A stretch of 64,000 bases of DNA. Source: Mesostigma viride. Its lineage: Eukaryota; Streptophyta; Mesostigmatophyceae; Mesostigmatales; Mesostigmataceae. The notes beneath the pieces are model-generated. The model saw only the letters and a program-made list of their open reading frames with translations. It was not told where the DNA came from and did not search any database. The translations under genes were made by a program, and so were the position numbers. The stretch spans positions 4,234,745 through 4,298,744 of the forward strand of contig RPFO01000072.1 in the NCBI GenBank assembly GCA_009746045.1, written 5' to 3'. Positions 15,990-62,692 of this stretch are shown in pieces. Position 1 is the first letter of the stretch. Every line of letters starts with the position of its first letter.

Positions 15990-49848
<33,859 letters not shown>

Positions 49849-50971: not shown

Positions 50972-51097
50972 TACTACTAGGTAACACCTTGTTGTTGTGT
51001 CCCACGCCGCAGCAGAGTCTTGTTATTCTTGTACAGTAGAGGCAGCTGTATGTATGCATCTCTTGGTTTTATGCTGTCAACCAGTCAGTCGGTCAGT

Positions 51098-51452
<355 letters not shown>

Positions 51453-54400
51453 GCCGGTCAGTCAGTAGAATCCCACGCCGGGGATCGCCAGTTATTTTTT
51501 TTTTTTCGGGGAAATGGGTATATTTTATTAGCCAATTATGGACCAAAGAGGTGAGAGGGGAAATGAGTATCAGCGAATCCTAATGAAGGTGGGCACGCAC
51601 ACGTGTGGCGGTGACAGGTGAAAGGCTAATAGGGCGCGTTATTAGACCAGGGAAGCCATTGGACCTGAGTGATGTCGCCATGAGGCATACTGGTGAATAC
51701 CTGATTACGGCCCAGTAGATCATGAAAAAGCTGGAGCGGGCTGGGCTTGTCGTTATTGGGCCCTGGGTCCCACACCCTGTGTTGTTCCTGAGCTAACAGC
51801 CAGTAGCGGCGCATAGCCGCATTCCATAGGTATATAAAGCGCCGGACTACGCCGCCGCGGGTATACTCCTCGCGGACCTTAAAGACTGTCTCGTTGCGTA
51901 TGGTCCAGATCGCGTATAGCATAGTAGTGCGTAGCCATATCCATTCTGCTTGGGAAACTGAAAGCTCGGACCCTGGTGTGCCAGCAATACCGAAAATGAT
52001 GGTACGCACGCTGATTGGGAGAGTGGGTGGCGATGCCGTCCATGCGGCCCAGATGTTAATGAGCCACGTCCAAACCCCAGGGAGATTACAGTAAAGAAAC
52101 CTGTGCTCAATGGTTTCACTAGGGTGCGTGCACAGGCATGATGCATCATGACCAAAACGCTCGTGGAGCATGGCGCAGACCCCTATCGCCCTATGCATCA
52201 AAAGGTGTTGTACATCAGTGGCCCTGCGGTCCACGAGAGGGTGGTCTACCGCCAGGGTAATCATCTTAACCCAAGTGTAGCCCGGCCAATGTATTCCCCA
52301 GCGGGCTCGGCCCGGGTGGGGCTGATGGTACATATGCAACAAGATATCATAACCCCAATCTGCGGTGTACTCAAAGATACATTTGCTGGTTCTGATGTCC
52401 CCCTTGGTTAAGACCCATCCAAATTCAACCGGGTCCAGATGTAGTAGATCGAGCCGTGTGTTGCCCACGTGTAGCCATGTAATGCTCTCAACCGGGGATA
52501 ATGGGTCCGGCTGGATCATGCAAGATCTTGGCACAGACCATGGGACTACGCGTATGCGGTGACACTGGGAAGCTGGCGTGTACGCATATAAGGTGGATAG
52601 TTGATACAGACACCCATTGTGGCCAGAAATAGCGTCCAGCAGTTGTAGTTGGAGCCCCTCAGGTGGCAGAACCGTCACGACTAAACCCTTGCACGCAGGC
52701 GTGACTCCGTCGGCGTAGAAGCTAACCCAGTCGCCGGTTATAATTGGCTTGCGTGGGGCAGTCATCAATGCATGCCACGCCGCTGGTATCGCACTTATAA
52801 GAGTTTGCCACGCTTGCAGGGAGGGCATGTGGGAGACCCAAGTGCTGACCTCGTCGTAGCTGAGCCGTCGGTACGCAGCGCCGTGCCCCAGGTAGAGGTC
52901 CAGCACCCTGACAATCGGCGGTGACGCGCGCAGAAAGCCATCATACGGGTTGTGTCCGTGGAGAGTGCCCAGGGGCTTGTTAGTAGCGTCTGTGATTAAG
53001 TCATTAAAAAAGAGTGGCTGCCGTGCCACCTCCTCTCTAGTAGTAGGAAAGACTAGGCGACCCGGCTTGAGCTTATTGTAACCTGTCCATATGCGCTGCC
53101 AATACCATGGGAGTCCTTTGTACGAAATAAGGGTGCTGCCCAGTATGCCCGCCCCCAGTTGCCACGAGGTGCCACTAGCATGGGTGGAAAGAGAGGCTAG
53201 CGTTTCACGTGCAAGCATGCAGCCAGGGTGTGTGTTAACGCCCATAAAAACGGATATCACTTGTTTAGCATACAGCGACCACAGACGCCATTGTATGTTG
53301 TGGAGCCCGAGGCCCCCGTGCACCCATGACATGAAGGACATCTCTCTGTTGATCCATCCGTGGACCGTGTGGGAGATTAAGCCTTTCTGTTTCCAGACAA
53401 AATTGCTGCCAAGGCGTTGGATGAGCTGTGTGGTGGCATCATTGGGTGGGTGTGCTTGGCAATAATACAAGACCTTAGAGAACAACAGTTGGTTGACGAT
53501 CAGGGTTCGCCCTCGTAGGCTCATGCGGTGGACGGCCCCCCAGCGCCCTGCGGTAAGGAGAACGCCTGCAAGCTTGCCCACGTGGTTGGTTTCATCATAC
53601 ATGAAAGAACGTTGTTCAGCCAAGCGTCCCTCGGGTGTGCAGCCGATGGGACAATTGTGCAAAAGGTGGTGATCCCCCGGCTTGACCCAGGTCACAGCCA
53701 GGTTGGGGAGGGCGTAGCGTAGGGTGTTGGTTTTGCCGATATGCAGTCCCGTGGACTTGAGCACATTGCATCGTTGTTGTGTGGCAACAGAATAGGTAGT
53801 GATATTATCCATGACAGCATGCACTTCAGGCAGAGAGATACAAACATTTGTTGTGTCATCCACATAAGCCGTTTGGAATATACCTTTACCGTTACCTGTC
53901 GGGAAGCCCCGAATGCGAGGATCGTTCTGGTGTAGCCAGTAGAGTCCTGCGTGGGCCAAGAGAAATAGAATAGGGGACATGCAATCTCCTTGTGGTAGCG
54001 ATCGTGAGCTAGCGCCGGTCGCTGACTTGTGTCCGTCTATTAGTAAATACCAAGCCAGGGATTTGATCATACCCATAATGACGGTCATGAGTTGTGGGCC
54101 AAATCCTAGTGCGGTTAGAATGTGTTCTAGGTATTCCCAGCACATACGGTCAAAGGCTTTTTCAAAATCCCAAAACAATATGAAACCCTCTATATCGTCG
54201 CGCCAGGCTTTTTCCACAATGTCCATGATGAGGGTAATGCTGTCGTTGATGTGGAGATTGGCCCTAAAGCCCACTTGCTCCGGACCAATGAGGAAGTCTA
54301 GGACGGTGTATAAGCGTCGTTGGATTATTTTACTGATGATTTTGTACGCTACCGTAAGGAGACGGATTGGGCGGTAGTTTTTCCATAGAGTCTTGTCTCC

Positions 54401-56560
54401 TTTTTTGTACAGTAAGATAAGCGCAGATTCAGCCCATCTGCCGCTCACCTTACCGTGCCGCCAAATTTCAAGAATACATTCGTAGAAATCTATGTGTAGA
54501 AGGGACCAGAACGTTTTCCAGAATTCAATAGGCAGACCGTCGACCCCGGGGGCGCTACCGGTTTTGATGTGTTCCATAGCTGTTGTGGCCTCTTCCATGG
54601 AGGGGATTTGATCGAGTTCCTGCTGTTGAGCTGGTGTAAGGCGACGGGGAATGGCATGTAGGATTTTTTGCATGGCTGCAGATGAGTCAGGATGGGGTTC
54701 GTTTAGAAAGAGAGCTGAGTAGTAACGGTGACCACTCTGTAGTATGGAGGTGATGTCTCGGTGGCTGCCGTGTTCGTCTTGGATTTCCGTGATAGAGGAG
54801 TGAGCTTTAGGGGTAGGAATCAGAGCAAAGAACTCTTTGGTCATTCTTTCTCCTACCTGGTGCCACCACAGATTTTCTGAGTCTAGTGCTAATGTGTGAC
54901 GCTCGAAACGTAGTTTGTCAAGTTCGGTCTGAGCTCTTTGAAGTTTTGTTAGTTCCGATTGATACAGGGTAGGCTTCGCTTGGAGTTTATTCACTATGCG
55001 TTGGTAGTACCGATAGTCCTGTCCTTTCTGGCGGCGGATATTTTGTGAATACAGTTGGGAAAATTCTAGAATGTTAGCTAGGCCCTCCTGCATCCAGCTG
55101 CAGCAGTCTGTGTAGCTACCCTTGCTGGCTCTCCACGACTGCCAGCGTGTCATGATCTCAAGGTAGTACTTATCGTCCGCGAGTAGGTGTTTGTTTAAGC
55201 GGGGAATGCCGGGGCCCCGGGCGGAGTTGGTGTGATGGGCAAGGGTAACGATGAGTGGGTAGTGATCAGAAAAATTAACAGAACGGTCGACCGATGCGTA
55301 GCAAACTAGGTCCGCCCATGCGGGTGTGATGTAGATTTTATCAAGACGACGAGTAGTGCGTACATTTAAACGTGTGGCCAGCCAAGTGGGCCCGTGGTCT
55401 CGTGAGCGGATGACATCCTGTAAGTTCAGGTCCATGATCTGTTTACTGAAGGCCGCTGTGCGTATAGGGGGGTGTTCATCCAGGTCTATATTGAAATCGC
55501 CCATCAACGCAATTTCGAACCCCTGTGAGATAAGGTCAGCGGCCATTTTGAAGAGGGAAGGGTAGAATGAGGCTTGATCCGTTGGCTCGGTTGGGGCATA
55601 TACACTAATAATGTATCCCTTATTTCCTGCCCATGTAATGGACTGCCGCGTCCAACGGCCCTGCCATCTAGCCTCCGCTGTGTCGGTAGCTATAGCCCAG
55701 TCCTGGCATGTCAGCGTAGGGTTGGGAGGTTTACGGTATTGAATGAGGGCAGTGCCCCCTTGTGTACCGCGTGCCCATGCCCAACGGTGAACTGTCCTAG
55801 GTGCAAGTGCTCTAGCAGCTCTAAGGGCGGTGCGTGTGGCAGCTTCTTGGATTTTATGTTCCTGCAGTCCTATCCAAATTTCATGCGAGGGGCCCACGTA
55901 GCGCTCGAGCAAGTTGTGTAATGCATTTGCTAATTCTCGTGTGCGAGGTATTCGCTGTCCCTGCCCTGGTGTGTGTGACCCGTATGTGTTCAGCCCCCTG
56001 ACATTCCACGATACCAGTGTTAGTTGACTCATGTCATTGCAGGGCTCCAGCGGACCAGGCCGGGTAGGTTCCGTGTAGGTCCCCATGGCGTGGTGAGATT
56101 GGACCTGCGAAAGGTGAAAGACACGGCACAACATGCACAGGGCGTGGGCGTGAGATAGTCATTAAAAGAGAGACCTACTGTGCAGTGTGCTGTGAGCAGA
56201 ACCAAAGCGATTGGAAAGGCTGCATTACACCCACGTTTGGGTAATGGCAGCAGGTATTGAGAAAAGTCGTTATGGAGGTGTCTTGGTGATAGCGGATCAC
56301 CTGGTGTGGCGATAACTATTCCATAGTCATTGCGCCTGTGAAAGGGTAACCGAGGGTACAGGAGGTCACGCTCCAAGGAGACTACTCGCCCACCCAGGTG
56401 GAGGGGCCCAGGCCTAGTCCATCCTGCCGATGGGTTTTCGAATCCGAGCCGTGGCTCACTGACCGAATGCCATAATGGGGTAGCCGTCACGAGAAACAGT
56501 GAGGCGAGGGGCGGACTTACGAATTTCGTAAGGCCTGCTCCTTCTACCCACACGTTTCAA
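51453..56560 (-). mobile_element. apparently full-length LINE (non-LTR retrotransposon)
   Basis: Contains the intact endonuclease/reverse transcriptase ORF (56134-51626), about 170 bp of 3' UTR, then the (CAA)n array, and upstream about 400 bp that may be 5' UTR or an ORF1 remnant. The outer limits are approximate; I could not find a convincing target-site duplication. It lies between the divergent ALC1-like and acetyltransferase genes. Confidence 0.8.
51626..56134 (-). CDS. LINE ORF2: AP endonuclease + reverse transcriptase + zf-RVT
   Basis: One uninterrupted 1502-residue frame, so probably young or recently active. Residues ~38-300 are an APE-type endonuclease (SWNVRGLN, GLQEHK with the metal-binding Glu, GDFNIDLDE, and the catalytic SDHYPLIV). 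Residues ~500-800 are the reverse transcriptase, with SAPGVDGLPIEFW, LLYKKGDKTLWKNYRPI, FWDFEKAFD (first Asp ~656), SLPQGDCMSPILF and AYVDD (759-760). A C-terminal Cys/His cluster (CLCTHPSETIEHRFLYC) matches the zf-RVT module of plant and algal L1-like LINEs. The protein nicks target DNA and primes reverse transcription of its own RNA. ATG at 56134-56132. Confidence 0.95.
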   Translation of the reverse strand: MLCRVFHLSQVQSHHAMGTYTEPTRPGPLEPCNDMSQLTLVSWNVRGLNTYGSHTPGQGQRIPRTRELANALHNLLERYVGPSHEIWIGLQEHKIQEAATRTALRAARALAPRTVHRWAWARGTQGGTALIQYRKPPNPTLTCQDWAIATDTAEARWQGRWTRQSITWAGNKGYIISVYAPTEPTDQASFYPSLFKMAADLISQGFEIALMGDFNIDLDEHPPIRTAAFSKQIMDLNLQDVIRSRDHGPTWLATRLNVRTTRRLDKIYITPAWADLVCYASVDRSVNFSDHYPLIVTLAHHTNSARGPGIPRLNKHLLADDKYYLEIMTRWQSWRASKGSYTDCCSWMQEGLANILEFSQLYSQNIRRQKGQDYRYYQRIVNKLQAKPTLYQSELTKLQRAQTELDKLRFERHTLALDSENLWWHQVGERMTKEFFALIPTPKAHSSITEIQDEHGSHRDITSILQSGHRYYSALFLNEPHPDSSAAMQKILHAIPRRLTPAQQQELDQIPSMEEATTAMEHIKTGSAPGVDGLPIEFWKTFWSLLHIDFYECILEIWRHGKVSGRWAESALILLYKKGDKTLWKNYRPIRLLTVAYKIISKIIQRRLYTVLDFLIGPEQVGFRANLHINDSITLIMDIVEKAWRDDIEGFILFWDFEKAFDRMCWEYLEHILTALGFGPQLMTVIMGMIKSLAWYLLIDGHKSATGASSRSLPQGDCMSPILFLLAHAGLYWLHQNDPRIRGFPTGNGKGIFQTAYVDDTTNVCISLPEVHAVMDNITTYSVATQQRCNVLKSTGLHIGKTNTLRYALPNLAVTWVKPGDHHLLHNCPIGCTPEGRLAEQRSFMYDETNHVGKLAGVLLTAGRWGAVHRMSLRGRTLIVNQLLFSKVLYYCQAHPPNDATTQLIQRLGSNFVWKQKGLISHTVHGWINREMSFMSWVHGGLGLHNIQWRLWSLYAKQVISVFMGVNTHPGCMLARETLASLSTHASGTSWQLGAGILGSTLISYKGLPWYWQRIWTGYNKLKPGRLVFPTTREEVARQPLFFNDLITDATNKPLGTLHGHNPYDGFLRASPPIVRVLDLYLGHGAAYRRLSYDEVSTWVSHMPSLQAWQTLISAIPAAWHALMTAPRKPIITGDWVSFYADGVTPACKGLVVTVLPPEGLQLQLLDAISGHNGCLYQLSTLYAYTPASQCHRIRVVPWSVPRSCMIQPDPLSPVESITWLHVGNTRLDLLHLDPVEFGWVLTKGDIRTSKCIFEYTADWGYDILLHMYHQPHPGRARWGIHWPGYTWVKMITLAVDHPLVDRRATDVQHLLMHRAIGVCAMLHERFGHDASCLCTHPSETIEHRFLYCNLPGVWTWLINIWAAWTASPPTLPISVRTIIFGIAGTPGSELSVSQAEWIWLRTTMLYAIWTIRNETVFKVREEYTRGGVVRRFIYLWNAAMRRYWLLAQEQHRVWDPGPNNDKPSPLQLFHDLLGRNQVFTSMPHGDITQVQWLPWSNNAPY

Positions 56561-57564
56561 GTGACGGCTAGCTGTTCCGCCCCTCAGAAGAGATGGCTAG
56601 ACGTACCTTTTCGTGCTGAATCCGAATCTGCCCTTTGTTTCGCGTTTAGATTACTACGTAAGGTGCTATCTCGTCCGCCGTCAGGGCCACCATAGCCAGC
56701 TTGTGCCAAAGGGGATTTCCGTTAGCCAGTTATTCGCCAGACAGTTGTCGCCGATAACTACCAACTACCAACTACAAATGTACCACAAATACCAATCAAA
56801 GCCCCGCCGCGCCGCGCCGCGTCACGCCACCCTGCCCCCGAACGCATGAACTCCTACTTTCCCGCGTTTTCCTGACAAAGATCCGTGACCAAATATAGAT
56901 CTGAATCATCGCAGCCTGATGTGACCTCATCTTCGGATGCACGTGGCGAAGGTTCCTTCGAGACGTCACTCGCTCCTTTCGCTGACAGGCAGCCAGCCTC
57001 AGCCAGCCGGGGATGCCAGGAGAATAATGACTGCAGGCATGATGCTGGGAAGGATCCCGAGAATACCGCACTTGACATCACGCCCGTGTGCGCCAAAGAA
57101 ATGCATACTGCGGCGCAACGTAAGCAAACTGTGTAAGTGTGTATGCACCACTCATCGTTCACCACGTGGTCGGGCAAAGCGTCCTTCTAGGTTCGGAAAA
57201 TTCCGTCCCCGCTGTCCCAGCCTCCACCAGTCCCATGACGAGGAACCTTGCAAGTGGCCGTGCCACGAGGGCAAACAAACCCGCGCGACGCGAGGCCCCG
57301 TGCCACCAGGTCCGTGCACACGCATTGCCCAAGCCCCGTGATACGCATAATAGAAGCATCGCTCGCCATCGTTATTCCTTTTTCGGGAATCCACAGACCA
57401 TTGCAATCTCTTCCGGCTATAGGGTGGAGGGGGGAATATCCCCAGTAGGATCACGTTCTTAATTCACAGGAGTTGAACCGTTTCGGGAACTGGGTGGCGC
57501 TGATCGACCATCCTCGGGCTAGCATTTCTTGTGGGGGACAGGGTTCGCGGGTCGGAACCACTGC
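56561..57564. other. region upstream of the acetyltransferase gene
   Basis: No supported gene. A CGCGCCGCG-type direct repeat at about 56805-56820. It should contain the acetyltransferase promoter; no TATA box or known element is clear. Confidence 0.45.
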
Positions 57565-58574
57565 ATGGAGCTCGCTATGGTATCTGTGGCTTTGGCCCCG
57601 GTGACGGACACTTCCGCAGCGATTGTGGGGGCTAGACCACATCCTCGGCGTTTGTCTAGGAAAAAGTTTAGTGAGTCTGGGCAGCGTCCCATCAGCAAAC
57701 CCGTTCGTTGCTCCAGTAAAGGGTATACCGGGCAGGCATTGAAGCAGGAGCGCTCTGAGAGGCATGTAGTCAGGGCGCTTGCCACGGAGTTGCAGGCCAC
57801 GCCGCAGAGTAATGGTGACTCTTCGACGGATGGGTGGTCCCACGCATTGGCGGTTAACGGGCCCTCCATCACGAATGGCGTGGTCGAGCGTGAGTCGTCT
57901 AGGGACAGCGATGCAAACTCGGCGGATGCCGCAGGTGGTGGAAAGGGCAGATCAGGAAAACCGAAGCGAGATGCCCGAAATTTCACCCCTCTGGAGAAGC
58001 TCCAGTGGACCACCAGCATGCCAGAATACATGCAGTCGTGCCCCGACGAGCTTCTCCTAGGAGACTCGTGGCTATACACAAAAGCGGGGGGCATGGCACC
58101 GCCGTCCCCTTCCGCCCGGCGATCCCTGAGCGTGTCGGATCCCACTAAGGACGGGTCCAACGGCGCGCCCAGCAAATTGGATCCGTACATCTCGGCGACG
58201 CCCGCTGTGAAATGGGGCTCGCTGTCCGCGGGGCCCCAGTATGGGAAATCCGAGATCCCCCAGATGTGGCCAGATCCCGTGTGGCAGCGGGTAGTAGAAG
58301 AGGCCCGAGCGGTCGCGGCCGAGGAGCCCTTTCTGTGCACGAACATGCACGGGTGCATCCTGGACCACAACTGCCTCGAAAAGTCGCTCGCGTTTATTCT
58401 TTCGAACCGGCTGTCGAACGACATCCTCCTGCCCACACAGCTCATGGAGCTATTTTTGGACGTGATGGCGTGTGATGAGGACATCCGGGTCGCGATACGC
58501 GAGGATGCCAAGGCGGTCGTCACGCGCGACCCTGCGTGCCAGAAGTACATCCACGCCATCCTGTACATGAAGGG
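57565..58574 (+). CDS. SAT: SAT exon 1 (transit peptide, N-terminal domain)
   Basis: Begins MELAMVSVALAPVTD; includes EEPFLCTNMHGCILDHNCLE, FILSNRLSNDILLP and the SAT_N block ending at KYIHAILYMKG. Donor AAGGG|GTGCGT, phase 2. The antisense strand is also open for 349 codons, but has no homology. Confidence 0.9.
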
Positions 58575-61500
58575 GTGCGTGTGTTAACTTGCCATAAGGC
58601 AGCCATCGGCTCTGGGTAGGAAGGCGTGCGTGTACAAGCTTGGCTCGGTACAGGACACGCAGGTGTAGTTACCTTTTCTCTGGGCACGGAGGGGTTTGTG
58701 CACGGCAAGTGAAAGCTACACCCAGACTCAAGCCAGCTCATAGTTTGGCTAGTGGGTACACTAGTGCGTACACACGGACAGGAAGGGATGCGTGTGTCAC
58801 TGTGGTATGAATATGCCACGAAGCGAATTCACAGGCGATTCTGGACATGCGAGGCGAGAAATAAAATCGCGAGTGGGAGTGGCCGTGGGCGTGGCCGTGC
58901 CGTGGGCGTGCCTTGGGTTGGGTTGGGTTGGGGGGGGGGGGGGGGGGGGGGGGCGTGTTACAATCCTTCACAGTTTCCTTTCCAATGCATGGGAGAGGTG
59001 TGCTGGGCTTGGGGCTTGGGGACAATCTATACCTCACGTACCCCTCCTCTCCGCCCGCCACCCCTCCTCTCCGTCCCCCAGTTGCTTTTCATTAGTTCTA
59101 TCCCCCACCCCTTGTCTGCGATTCCCCCCCGCGCTATTCATGCCAGCGCTCTGTTCGGACTTTTTCCACCGCTGGTAAATGAATCACTGAGATCCGTGCC
59201 CTCCTTTGGTGCCCACCATTTAGGACCCCGTCCTCTCCTCCCCCCCCCCTCCCCCCCCCCCTGCTCTTCTCGCCTTCCCCTCTCTTGTCCCACCCTTGCT
59301 ATTCCCACGTTTCCTTCCCACCCGCATCCTTCGCCACCTCCCCCGGGCTGTCGCGATGTCTGCTGCGCGCGATGTTGGCGTCGCTTTCTCTTCCCATGTC
59401 ATCGGCGTCCACTTGTGCCCGTGTCGATCCGGTAGATTATCCCTGGGATGGGTGTCCACCGTGTACTTGCCCATCATGTGCACCGTTGGAGATTGCAGTT
59501 GCCCATCAGCCGTCAAAGTGCCCCGCGCTCTCCAGCGGACATCGCTCCAAGACCGTGCTCCCCTAGACCATGCTCCCCTAGACCATGCTCCCCTCAACCG
59601 TCTGCCTGCGCCCTGATGTCGTGTCCCCACAAGTCCTTAGAACCCGGCTGCTTTTCGCTCCGGGTTTTTTTGTTACCCCCTGTGTTGCCTCTCCTTTGAA
59701 ACTCTGCTCTCCCTTTTCTGTTCTACTTTTATTCTTATTTTTGGTATCCCTCCTCTGCATGGTGGCTCCTCCCCACCCGCTGCCACGCGCTGCAGGTTGT
59801 CATTATAATTTATAAATGCCATTGATTGCTTTCATTGCCGTTATGTGCATCTTGGCCCGCTGGCTACCCCCCCCCCCCCCCCTCCCCGGCTGCCGTGCGC
59901 CCACAGCTACCACGCCCTACAGGCGTACCGCATCGCGCACCACCTGTACAAGAAGGGACGCCATGTGCTCGCCTACATGCTGCAGTCCCTCATCAGCCAG
60001 AAGCTCGGGCTGGACATCCATCCGGCCGCGCGCATCGGCCACGGCGTGTTGATGGACCACGGGATGGGGATCGTCATCGGAGAGACGGCGGTGGTGGGCG
60101 AGATGTGCTCGCTCATGCAGGTGGGTGGCCTGGTGTATAGTGTGATGGGCGCGCTCATGCAGGCAGGGAGGAGGGTTATTTTTTACAACTAGTTATTGTT
60201 AGGCATTCTGCTAGGTGAGTTTGGATGCGCTGTCATCCAGGCGGGTGGTGCGCTTCCAGTGTACTTGGCTCACTAGTGCAGTTCAGGTGGCAGATGAACG
60301 TGCTCGCTCATGCAGGCGGGGGTGGTGTCTTTGCTGACGACTTCAACAGTAATGCCCACCAAACCGTTCAGAGCAAGATAACGCGATAGAAGTAAAGATT
60401 GCCTACAGCATTTGGAATTTCTGCGTCGAAGACTTGATCCACCTAGTTGTTAGTCTTCTTTAGTTGCCCGCTCTTTGTCTAGGGACCAGGTGGCTGAACC
60501 CTTCCACGGTTTCGCCCTCCCTCCCTCTTTTTCCCTGCGGCAGGGTTTTGCGTTGGACAGTTCCCCGTTTCCTCTTGACCTCTCACGCTCACCTCCACTG
60601 TTTTACTCACCCTCCCTCCGCTTCCCCTACCCCAGGGCGTGACGTTGGGCGGCACGGGCAAGGAGGGGGGCGACCGCCACCCCAAGCTGGGCCACGGCGT
60701 GCTGGTGGCAGCGCACGCGACCATCCTGGGCAACATCAGCATCGGGACGGGCTCCATGATCGCGGCAGGGTCCCTGGTTCTCAAGAACGTGGAGCGGCGC
60801 ACGTGAGTGGTTGAGGATTATTATTCATCATTATGAATGAATTCATATGAAGGGTTGGTTGGTACTAATGCTCAAGCAGGTGGAGCGCCCCACGCAAGTG
60901 GTGGGGGGAGGTCATTTCCTTTGCATGATGAGAATTCTGTGTATGGGTGCTTGGTGTGGGTGGGTTGGGTGCTTGGCTATGGGTGTTTGGTACGAATGCT
61001 CCAGAACGTGAAGTTGCGCACATGAGTGTTATTGTGGCATCTGCATGGCTTTGCTATGCGTCAGTTCATACGGGTGACCAACTCACATGACAGATACGGG
61101 TGAAAACATGCTTGGCATGAACCGCTTCCAGGCCCATTTGACTAATGACCTCTTGCGATCTCTCGATCGCTGCCTCGCCCCACAGTCCACGTCATCGTGA
61201 TGTTTTCGCTCGTCTCTCATCTAACCCTGCTCCCTCTGCCGTGCCCCCATCTTCGCTGTCTCCTGCTCCTGTGGATGGCCCAACCCCACTGCCCCGGCAT
61301 TGCCCCCTGCCTCCCAATTTCCCCGCAGGATTGTTGCTGGCAGCCCCGCGCGCGTCGTCGGGGTGAAGCTTCACGGCCTGCCCGCGCTCTCCATGAACCA
61401 GGCGCTGTCAGCCAGTAGGTTATTACCCCGATACAGAAATGCACAGCCGTACCCGCAAGCTTGTCCATGAGCCAGGCACTGGCTGGTAGGTTATTACCCC

Positions 61501-62692
61501 ATGACAGTAATGCTCCGTAGCACCGGCAAGCTTGTCCATGAACCAGGCACTGGCGGCCGATATCTTGTCATCTCACTCCCATGCATCATAGCTTGCATTG
61601 TAGCAGCACGGGGCATGATAGGATCACGGGTCAGGTGCTGGTGCTTGTCGTCTTATGACTCTGAATCTCTTTGTGGACCCCCCTGGGCACGCGACGCGCT
61701 CTCAGTCAGTATTTTCTCAATCCAGAAAGGGGTTGCCTTGCGGGGGGGGAAAAAAAAAGAAAAAGAAAGAACGAAAAAAAGTAAAAAAGCCGAAGGTTAT
61801 CAGCCGTGTAGCGGTCATGTGCACCCTATGCACTGTGCCCACCTGTATAAAGTACGTAAGTTCTTGCATGTCATGGCGAGGACGTGTCATGGCGCGGTAT
61901 CACGGCACAGGCTGCCACTAGGCTTACCATTATCCATAGCATGTCTACATAGATATATCCCACTAGGTCCGTACCAATATCCATATCAGGTCTACATAGA
62001 TATATCCCACCACTAGGTTCCGTGCCACTTTCCATATCATGTCTACATAGATATAAAGTGAGCGGTATGGCGAGGTGCGGTGAGCGACCAACACATGAGG
62101 ATATGTCACAGCAATAGATAGGATTGAGTGACGGACTGTGTCCACTGCGCACCGCCGCCACTGTCCGTGTGTCTAGTTCTTCTATTGCTGTATCCTGCTA
62201 ACCGCGATCCTGTCGTGTTGTCCTGTGCCTGTCGTCACGGCCCCACCATGACGCCCCTCCCATGACCAACGTTTTCTCCTCCCCCCCCCCCCCCCCCCCC
62301 CCCCCCCCCGTAAAGGCCGCCCACCCCCGTCCCATGAGAAAGCCGAGTCCTTCTGCAAGGAATGGGAGGCGGCGGTCGGCAAGCAGCTGTCGGTCAATGC
62401 GAGCTTCCAGAGTGCGCAAGTCACGGAAGACAGCTACGTGCGCACCGAGGATGGCGCGGTGGCCAGCGTGAGCAGCAAGAGTGCGAGCATCACCGCCCAG
62501 CAAGGCACGGTGGCCACGCAAAGTGGTGACGTGGCCAGCATAAAGTCAGCCACAGTGACCATGACCACCACCACGACCACGGCCAAGAAGGGTGGCGCCC
62601 CAGTTGTGGGGGGGCTGGTGGGGCGGCTTCCGGGGGCAGCCCCACTTAAGAAAGGCAACGCGGTGGACATGGGCGCAGACACGGTGATCTGA
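57565..62692 (+). CDS. SAT: serine O-acetyltransferase (five exons), probably plastid-targeted
   Basis: Exons 57565-58574, 59907-60120, 60636-60802, 61329-61414 and 62316-62692; all GT-AG, phases consistent, 1854 nt, 617 aa. Transfers acetyl from acetyl-CoA to serine, making the O-acetylserine used for cysteine. Residues 1-60 are Ser/Ala/Arg-rich and basic like a transit peptide; ~60-210 are poorly conserved. The SAT N-terminal helical domain follows, ending AVVTRDPACQKYIHAILYMK. The left-handed beta-helix acyltransferase core has YHALQAYRIAHHLYKKGR, HPAARIGHGVLMDHGMGIVI, GVTLGGTGKEGGDRHPKLGH and IVAGSPARVVG. Exon 5 adds an unusual ~125-residue tail whose last residue is Ile (DTVI), like the C-terminal Ile that docks into O-acetylserine sulfhydrylase in the cysteine synthase complex. 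ATG at 57577 is an alternative start. Confidence 0.93.
58569..58800 (+). repeat. echoes of the SAT exon 1 donor edge
   Basis: The exon end AAGGGGTGCGTGTGT (58569) recurs as AAGGCGTGCGTGTAC (58621) and AAGGGATGCGTGTGT (58783) inside intron 1. The second keeps GT at the donor position; the third has AT. Confidence 0.8.
59907..60120 (+). CDS. SAT: SAT exon 2 (hexapeptide core)
   Basis: Acceptor GCCCACAG about 22 bp after a C-rich tract. Encodes YHALQAYRIAHHLYKK and the catalytic-site turn DHGMGIVIGETAVVG. Donor ATGCAG|GTGGGT, phase 0. Three degraded copies of this exon end follow in intron 2. Confidence 0.95.
60110..60325 (+). repeat. echoes of the SAT exon 2 donor edge
   Basis: The exon end GCTCGCTCATGCAG|GTGGGT recurs three times in intron 2, at about 60144-60172, 60223-60250 and 60293-60325. 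In all three copies the base pair after CAG is GC instead of GT. Confidence 0.88.
60636..60802 (+). CDS. SAT: SAT exon 3 (hexapeptide core)
   Basis: Acceptor CTACCCCAG. Encodes GVTLGGTGKEGGDRHPKLGH, then ILGNISIGTGSMIAAGS, beta-helix turns with the conserved His. Donor CGCAC|GTGAGT, phase 2. Confidence 0.95.
60783..61030 (+). repeat. echoes of the SAT exon 3 donor edge
   Basis: The exon end GAACGTGGAGCGGCGCAC|GT recurs as CAGGTGGAGCGCCCCAC|GC (about 60880) and GAACGTGAAGTTGCGCAC|AT (about 61006) in intron 3. Both copies have lost the GT. Confidence 0.85.
61329..61414 (+). CDS. SAT: SAT exon 4 (beta-helix cap)
   Basis: Acceptor TTCCCCGCAG. Encodes IVAGSPARVVGVKLHGLPAL, closing the beta helix. 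Donor GCCA|GTAGGT, phase 1. Confidence 0.92.
61390..61560 (+). repeat. echoes of the SAT exon 4 donor edge
   Basis: The exon end CCATGAACCAGGCGCTG...GTAGGTTATTACC is followed by a copy CCATGAGCCAGGCACTG...GTAGGTTATTACC (about 61466-61500) and a third, CCATGAACCAGGCACTGGCG (about 61538-61557). The second keeps a full donor. Confidence 0.88.
61920..62062 (+). repeat. ~60-bp tandem repeat, ~2.5 copies
   Basis: Units containing TCTACATAGATATATCCCAC and TATCCATATCA-like segments in SAT intron 4. Confidence 0.8.
62282..62309 (+). repeat. poly-C run (~28) used as a polypyrimidine tract
   Basis: Homopolymer of C ending about 6 bp before the exon 5 acceptor of the acetyltransferase gene. Confidence 0.85.
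62316..62692 (+). CDS. SAT: SAT exon 5 (C-terminal extension ending in Ile)
   Basis: Acceptor GTAAAG directly after a ~28-base C run. Encodes HEKAESFCKEWEAAVGKQLS, a Ser/Thr/Val-rich region with a TTTTTT run, and the end MGADTVI before TGA. Assignment rests on matching phase, an open frame and the terminal Ile; the region has no known domain. Confidence 0.75.

Follow-up and report, generated by a model that had tools for sequence, protein, structure and literature searches.

Gene content of the window

The DNA analysed here, referred to throughout as the window, is a stretch of 64,000 nucleotides from Mesostigma viride. For strain NIES-296, the available part of the genome paper gives a published assembly of 441.8 Mb, with introns averaging 1142 bp (PMC6947507). 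On the + strand the window carries a gene for a plant-type serine acetyltransferase (SAT), of which five exons were found; the best listed protein matches are 53-60% identical and belong nearly all to land plants. The - strand carries a gene for a CHD1L/CHR10-like SNF2 helicase with 12 exons (a-l) in consistent frames, and first and last exons were not found beyond these. Exons and the copies of exon ends described below are collected in Table 1.

Both genes contain further repeats. Long G or C runs were seen in the SAT introns at 58931-58953, 59239-59261, 59870-59882 and 62281-62309, and the C runs 59870-59882 and 62281-62309 directly precede SAT acceptors. Helicase intron h/i holds a 58-bp satellite with 72 copies and 97% matches (34016-38186), and intron i/j a 43-bp x 15.8 array (32115-32794). 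Exon f opens with a repeat of the last part of exon e (40709-41141, - strand), and exon g includes a 24-bp x 2.1 tandem repeat at 40184-40233; this insertion in the SNF2 domain looks as if it had been assembled from local duplications.

Elsewhere in the window, a 1510-codon open frame occupies 51629-56158 on the - strand. By eye, its start resembles the endonuclease of LINE-type retrotransposons, and a (GTT)119 tract at 51096-51453 adjoins it. In a Pfam scan of 1-34 and 38-48 kb of the - strand and 1-20 kb of the + strand, a low-complexity PT repeat was the sole match above its cut-off outside the helicase, and no RNA family reached its gathering score in the window. Among viral contigs, no relatives of the helicase exon k/l peptide or of the long open frame were found. 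The exon c/d peptide matched seven viral-contig and 80 genome-contig loci in one scan; their titles were bacterial or archaeal and none was used.

Table 1. Positions of exons, exon-end copies (echoes) and boundary-crossing arrays within the window
Feature	Position	Strand	Remarks
SAT exon 1	57523-58574	+	open frame, 5' end undefined; donor after 58574
SAT exon 1, echo 1	58590-58631	+	copies -38 to +6; GT kept
SAT exon 1, echo 2	58778-58797	+	GT to AT (58788)
SAT exon 1, further partial copy	58814-58849	+	exon positions -38 to -5
SAT exon 2	59907-60120	+	
SAT exon 2, echo 1	60144-60163	+	GC
SAT exon 2, echo 2	60224-60246	+	GC
SAT exon 2, echo 3	60286-60320	+	GC; core 20/21 identical
SAT exon 3	60636-60802	+	
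SAT exon 3, echo 1	60871-60899	+	GC
SAT exon 3, echo 2	60999-61027	+	AT
SAT exon 4	61329-61414	+	
SAT exon 4, tandem array	61390-61554	+	71-bp x 2.3; begins within exon, crosses donor; contains echoes 1 and 2
SAT exon 4, echoes 1 and 2	61442-61491, 61535-61558	+	copy 2 without GT
SAT exon 5	62318-62692	+	includes stop codon; acceptor accurate to a few bases
Helicase gene	28075-45705	-	12 exons
Helicase exons a-d	45705-45627, 45099-44939, 44240-44106, 42028-41891	-	
Helicase exons e-h	41288-41141, 40794-40709, 40263-40034, 39515-39257	-	
Helicase exons i-l	33663-33538, 30756-30448, 29192-29067, 28369-28075	-	
Helicase exon c, echo	44040-44060	-	GT kept; echo donor 44049, real donor after 44106
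Helicase exon h, tandem array	39203-39270	-	27-bp x 2.5; crosses donor
Helicase exon i, echo	33403-33420	-	18/18 identical including GTGGGT; echo donor 33412
Helicase exon j, two echoes	30384-30345, 30244-30229	-	both GT
Helicase exon l, echo	27880-27922	-	43 bp, 79% identical, GT kept
Helicase exon k, acceptor-side echo	29298-29331	-	
Helicase exon i, acceptor-side echo	33800-33835	-	

Exon-end copies in the window and elsewhere in the genome

All four SAT donors are followed by one to three imperfect direct copies of the exon end together with the donor, near the positions at which the sequence-only reading of this DNA had placed them. That reading was also right in assigning GC to all three copies of exon 2 and GC and AT to those of exon 3. 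Its statement that the remaining copies keep GT holds for the first copy of exon 1; the second copy of exon 1 has AT, and the second copy of exon 4 has lost GT.

The scores of the four SAT donors against their own introns were 32, 38, 40 and 43; the remaining SAT introns gave 12-24. The donors of SAT and helicase were then taken together, with 40 exon and 10 intron bases as the query against the next 350 intron bases. Twelve of these 16 donors scored above every one of the 15 swapped introns and had a shuffle p ≤ 0.01. By the same swapped-intron and shuffle test, helicase donors a, d, e and f gave no clear echo. Two of the 15 acceptors were clear and one was marginal. A score of at least 24 was reached by 11 of 16 donors, compared with 4.1% of 14,313 array-free generic positions, and by donor-like GTRNGT sites in 2.7% of 110 cases elsewhere and 9.5% of 21 cases inside the two genes. 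Control positions were masked for tandem arrays and donors were not; the real donors that pass the same mask and motif all reach 24 (4/4). Without masking, 12-14% of window positions attain the SAT donor scores, presumably via satellites. Recursive splice sites (AG-GT ratchets) appear unlikely by eye, many exon ends and echoes being without AG or GT.

Other genes of the genome were sampled as 20 SNF2-family and four CCT chaperonin stretches, whose introns were placed by spliced alignment of protein to DNA. When the aligner was run on the window, 10 of 11 helicase donors were recovered, with 8 of 11 introns exact. Of the four SAT introns three were exact; in the fourth the donor was correct and the acceptor lay 2 bp from the position in Table 1. 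Where conservation is poor the aligner predicts a few additional introns, and the 16 window donors on which it was checked also supplied its donor matrix. Only well-aligned junctions were kept, namely 37 of 100 SNF2 introns (36 with room for the search) and 17 of 29 CCT introns. Together with 15 introns of the window they make a set of 68, from which the donor of helicase exon l was omitted despite its echo because its acceptor is unknown.

At the threshold of 24, echoes were found at 17/36 donors and 9/36 acceptors of the SNF2 introns, and at 5/17 donors and 0/17 acceptors of the CCT introns. Outside the window this amounts to 22/53 donors against 9/53 acceptors (Fisher 0.0098), and for all 68 introns to 32 donors against 11 acceptors (Fisher 0.00019). 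At least one donor echo was present in 17 of 23 loci. The introns that failed the filter gave lower rates in the SNF2 sample (63 introns, 59 scored; donors 16/59, acceptors 6/59); with the 12 failing CCT introns included, all 29 gave ten donors and one acceptor. The CCT-beta gene, whose product agrees with a Mesostigma protein (label Mesvir1) in 483 of 484 aligned residues, has echoes at two of seven donors. The densest case is an SNF2 gene (L121), with echoes at 4/7 donors and 5/7 acceptors. Two TCP-1 chaperonin genes (C1641:60944-67934 and C887:341605-349664) have equal scores at three matched exons; lying on different contigs, the pair is either a recent duplicate or unmerged haplotypes.

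As controls, 4286 swapped exon-intron pairs were scored, of which 0.58% reached 24 on the donor side and 0.40% on the acceptor side. Queries from the exon interior (-100 to -50 from the donor) gave 0/68 echoes. Inverted copies, or pairing decoys, likewise reached the threshold in 0/68 introns. A metagene of the 68 introns peaks at the donor and falls to 1% by -50 in the exon. Introns with an echo exceed those without in length, with medians of 856 and 555 bp (n = 51, Spearman p 0.011), with the reservation that short introns offer less search space.

Origin of the copies

Several copies have the structure of tandem duplications. Units of 27, 28, 71 and 81 bp were found in the clear cases across a boundary, among them an 81-bp duplication from -15 to +66 with 93% identity (locus L133). 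In L122, 32 bp are matched at a spacing of 28, and in L121, 88 bp over a spacing of 97. Among 11 young cases, at least one of which is a self-overlap artefact, at least 70% of the spacing was covered in three only. Other young echoes, including the second copy of SAT exon 1, match over 20-35 bp, far below the spacing; examples are 25 bp at 96% with spacing 77 (L119) and 33 bp at 91% with spacing 313 (L126). For these short matches a single simple duplication is insufficient, and either turnover of the array or some other route has to be invoked. Similarity on the intron side extends past +10 (8/20 at p ≤ 0.1, combined p 0.014); on the exon side no excess was found beyond 30 bases (combined p 0.35). 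Copies in the same intron have 34 derived states in common, compared with 15.8 by chance (ungapped), as in serial arrays, so some copies were made from earlier copies.

The echoes are probably remains of short direct tandem duplications across exon-intron boundaries, in a genome rich in intronic duplication; we put the probability of this reading at about 0.7. The duplicated units, which in the clear cases measure about 27-100 bp and at times recur, would span a boundary by chance. After duplication of a donor, the spliceosome would keep the authentic upstream 5' splice site, and the extra copy would become intron, lengthen it and decay. The exon copy being constrained, such a duplication should stay visible about twice as long as an intron-internal one. 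After duplication of an acceptor, the upstream copy would be the wrong one, and these duplications would be partly purged by selection, as splicing would turn to that upstream acceptor. The young tandem structure, the donor excess over swapped introns, the smaller number of acceptor echoes and the lack of exon-interior, inverted or cross-gene copies all support the duplication reading. Which donor is spliced, the rule that the upstream site wins and selection at acceptors are what we infer from these patterns; protein conservation puts the splice junction at the first donor.

The tendency of intron interiors to duplicate sets what is to be expected at an edge. In matched interior windows (W = 200), local duplications were found in 42/196 cases forward and 37/196 backward, compared with 27/49 donors and 9/49 acceptors. 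By offset, the rate in matched windows was 0.14-0.42, and about 19-28% of matched windows carried local duplications. In a simulation, a duplication with one constrained copy was detectable 1.95 times as long, and this ratio gives a neutral edge expectation of about 0.35 in the matched-window setting. The interior control alters this expectation, as the interior rate is 0.12-0.28 depending on the analysis; metagene and interior controls were not equally strict, so the neutral expectation is a range. Window donors lie above it (10/15 vs 0.40 expected, p 0.03), donors of the other genes equal it (22/53 vs 0.43, p 0.6), and acceptors fall below it (11/68 vs 0.42, p 5e-6). Donors are thus at or moderately above the neutral expectation. 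Much of the signal at donors would be predicted under neutrality, given that interiors duplicate locally and that the copy in the exon is kept from decaying. The acceptor deficit is compatible with the rule that the upstream site wins. In one analysis interiors close to acceptors held fewer duplications (about 0.10) than those close to donors (0.18), and part of the asymmetry between donors and acceptors may therefore reflect a 5'-3' gradient; in another analysis the two were alike (0.19 vs 0.21).

The same numbers bear on a donor-directed process, in which the 5' splice site itself starts the duplication, for example through transcription-linked R-loops or slipping of G-rich donors, and introns grow from their 5' edge. 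The metagene peak at the donor, the donor rates in the matched windows and in the window genes, and the richer donor-near interiors of the one analysis would all be expected of it. Against it, the other genes stand at the neutral level, acceptors echo as well, and only 2.7% of the 110 array-free donor-like sites score, which argues that the donor motif alone is no attractor. We regard such direction as unlikely. Equally hard to credit is the far-reaching form in which donor-edge duplication in Mesostigma would be directed, continuing and a main engine of long introns, with the upstream donor always winning, even where the competing site some 100 bp further on is identical or stronger. The sequence-only reading had proposed that introns may grow by slippage or duplication starting at the exon edge. 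Growth by duplication stands in part, since the copies are duplications, lie at the SAT donors, are gene-specific and occur in longer introns; a start at the exon edge finds no support, given the 11/68 acceptor echoes and interiors rich in local duplications.

The state of the splice dinucleotides bears on whether the copies serve as functional decoys, kept by selection as 5'-site-like sequences that bind U1 or tune splicing. Some donors have two or three copies, eight of the 12 echoes that keep GT equal or surpass the real donor in score, and the core of the third copy of SAT exon 2 is almost unchanged between weakly matched flanks, as retention would predict. Yet among echoes found from the exon part alone, GT was kept in 12/21, compared with 17.4 expected by exon-part identity (p 0.005), an expectation inflated by local alignment and affected by some mis-registered cases; among the best echoes, with the donor included in the search, 19/28 keep GT. 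Core identities of 72-100% are as in plain decay, and binding of U1 needs no exon-specific sequence. A retained function is therefore quite improbable. The converse idea of the sequence-only reading, that selection silences the decoy donors, gains weak support from the GT deficit, subject to the same inflation and mis-registration. At acceptors AG is kept in 9/11 echoes, which speaks against silencing there and is a poor fit to upstream acceptors that are harmful, removed or silenced.

Tandem duplication has also been proposed to create introns (the AGGT model), and the echoes could then be birth marks of introns born from duplicated exon segments. One intron would fit such a birth: the end of exon e is repeated at the start of helicase exon f, with a score of 31 and a spacing of 366 that bridges a 346-bp intron. 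This is the one exception-like case; the model predicts a copy directly before the acceptor, whereas the SAT and helicase copies lie 15-321 bp past the donor and serial copies are common, which makes this origin very doubtful for the echoes at large. Dispersed elements or chance similarity among G-rich donors, which have a GTGGGTG-like consensus in common, can be set aside, chance and shared consensus by the swapped, shuffled and pseudo-donor controls, and dispersal because copies are not common to genes and SAT stretch 60080-60330 (251 bp) matched only itself in the 439.9-Mb assembly in a search that skips very common words.

Comparison with known boundary duplications and intron gain

Among the systems compared, introners, which are transposable intron-creating elements, also make introns on a large scale in protists (PMC11453091). 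As described in the available part of that source, they form families common to genes; here each tested echo is specific to its own exon, and recurrence in introns of other genes was confined to 0.58% of the 4286 swapped pairs. Intron gain in Daphnia by double-strand break repair likewise ties short direct repeats to introns (PMC3443670), but in the accessible text these repeats flank both intron ends, and here they lie inside the intron and copy exon and donor. The AGGT model invokes the same mutational event, a tandem duplication over a splice-like sequence (PMC3443670). As far as that source goes, the model creates a new intron, whereas in Mesostigma an existing intron is lengthened and the copies follow the donor and not the acceptor.

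The closest parallel is found in amphioxus. The available parts of two reports (PMC3087553, PMC3902484) describe mirages, in which exon-intron boundaries of the Adh3, globin, TnC and PGBD5 genes are duplicated in tandem in the manner of minisatellites. Either boundary may be affected, many copies carry AG/GT, and splicing is reportedly undisturbed. Mirages are a precedent for serial copies at donors, of which the sequence-only reading had known none. Mirages and the echoes are alike in being direct tandem copies over donors and acceptors, and their unit sizes overlap (10-72 and 150-160 bp in mirages, as given in those texts). As in mirages, the repeat unit spans the boundary at SAT exon 4, helicase exon h and L133, and both 5' and 3' boundaries are duplicated (32/68 donors, 11/68 acceptors). 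Unlike the amphioxus cases, the echoes occur in a streptophyte alga, many copies are old and degenerate, and they were found at 32/68 donors in 23 loci; compared with what these sources describe, they are also donor-biased, as gauged against interiors, acceptors and swapped introns. Within its limited coverage, a literature search found no report of boundary duplications in plants or algae.

As judged from their sequences, the echoes of this green alga can be classed as mirage-like; their lineage, extent and donor bias are new, their kind is not. Boundary duplications would thereby extend from lancelets to an early-diverging streptophyte alga, with a prevalence in donors and loci that goes beyond a few genes, and they may offer a countable mechanism for intron growth. 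Each echo sets up a natural competition between near-identical splice sites, and the contrast between donors and acceptors could read out splice-site choice on an evolutionary scale. Like the mirages of amphioxus, the echoes of Mesostigma may thus be seen as a natural record of intron growth and of how splicing handles duplicated sites.
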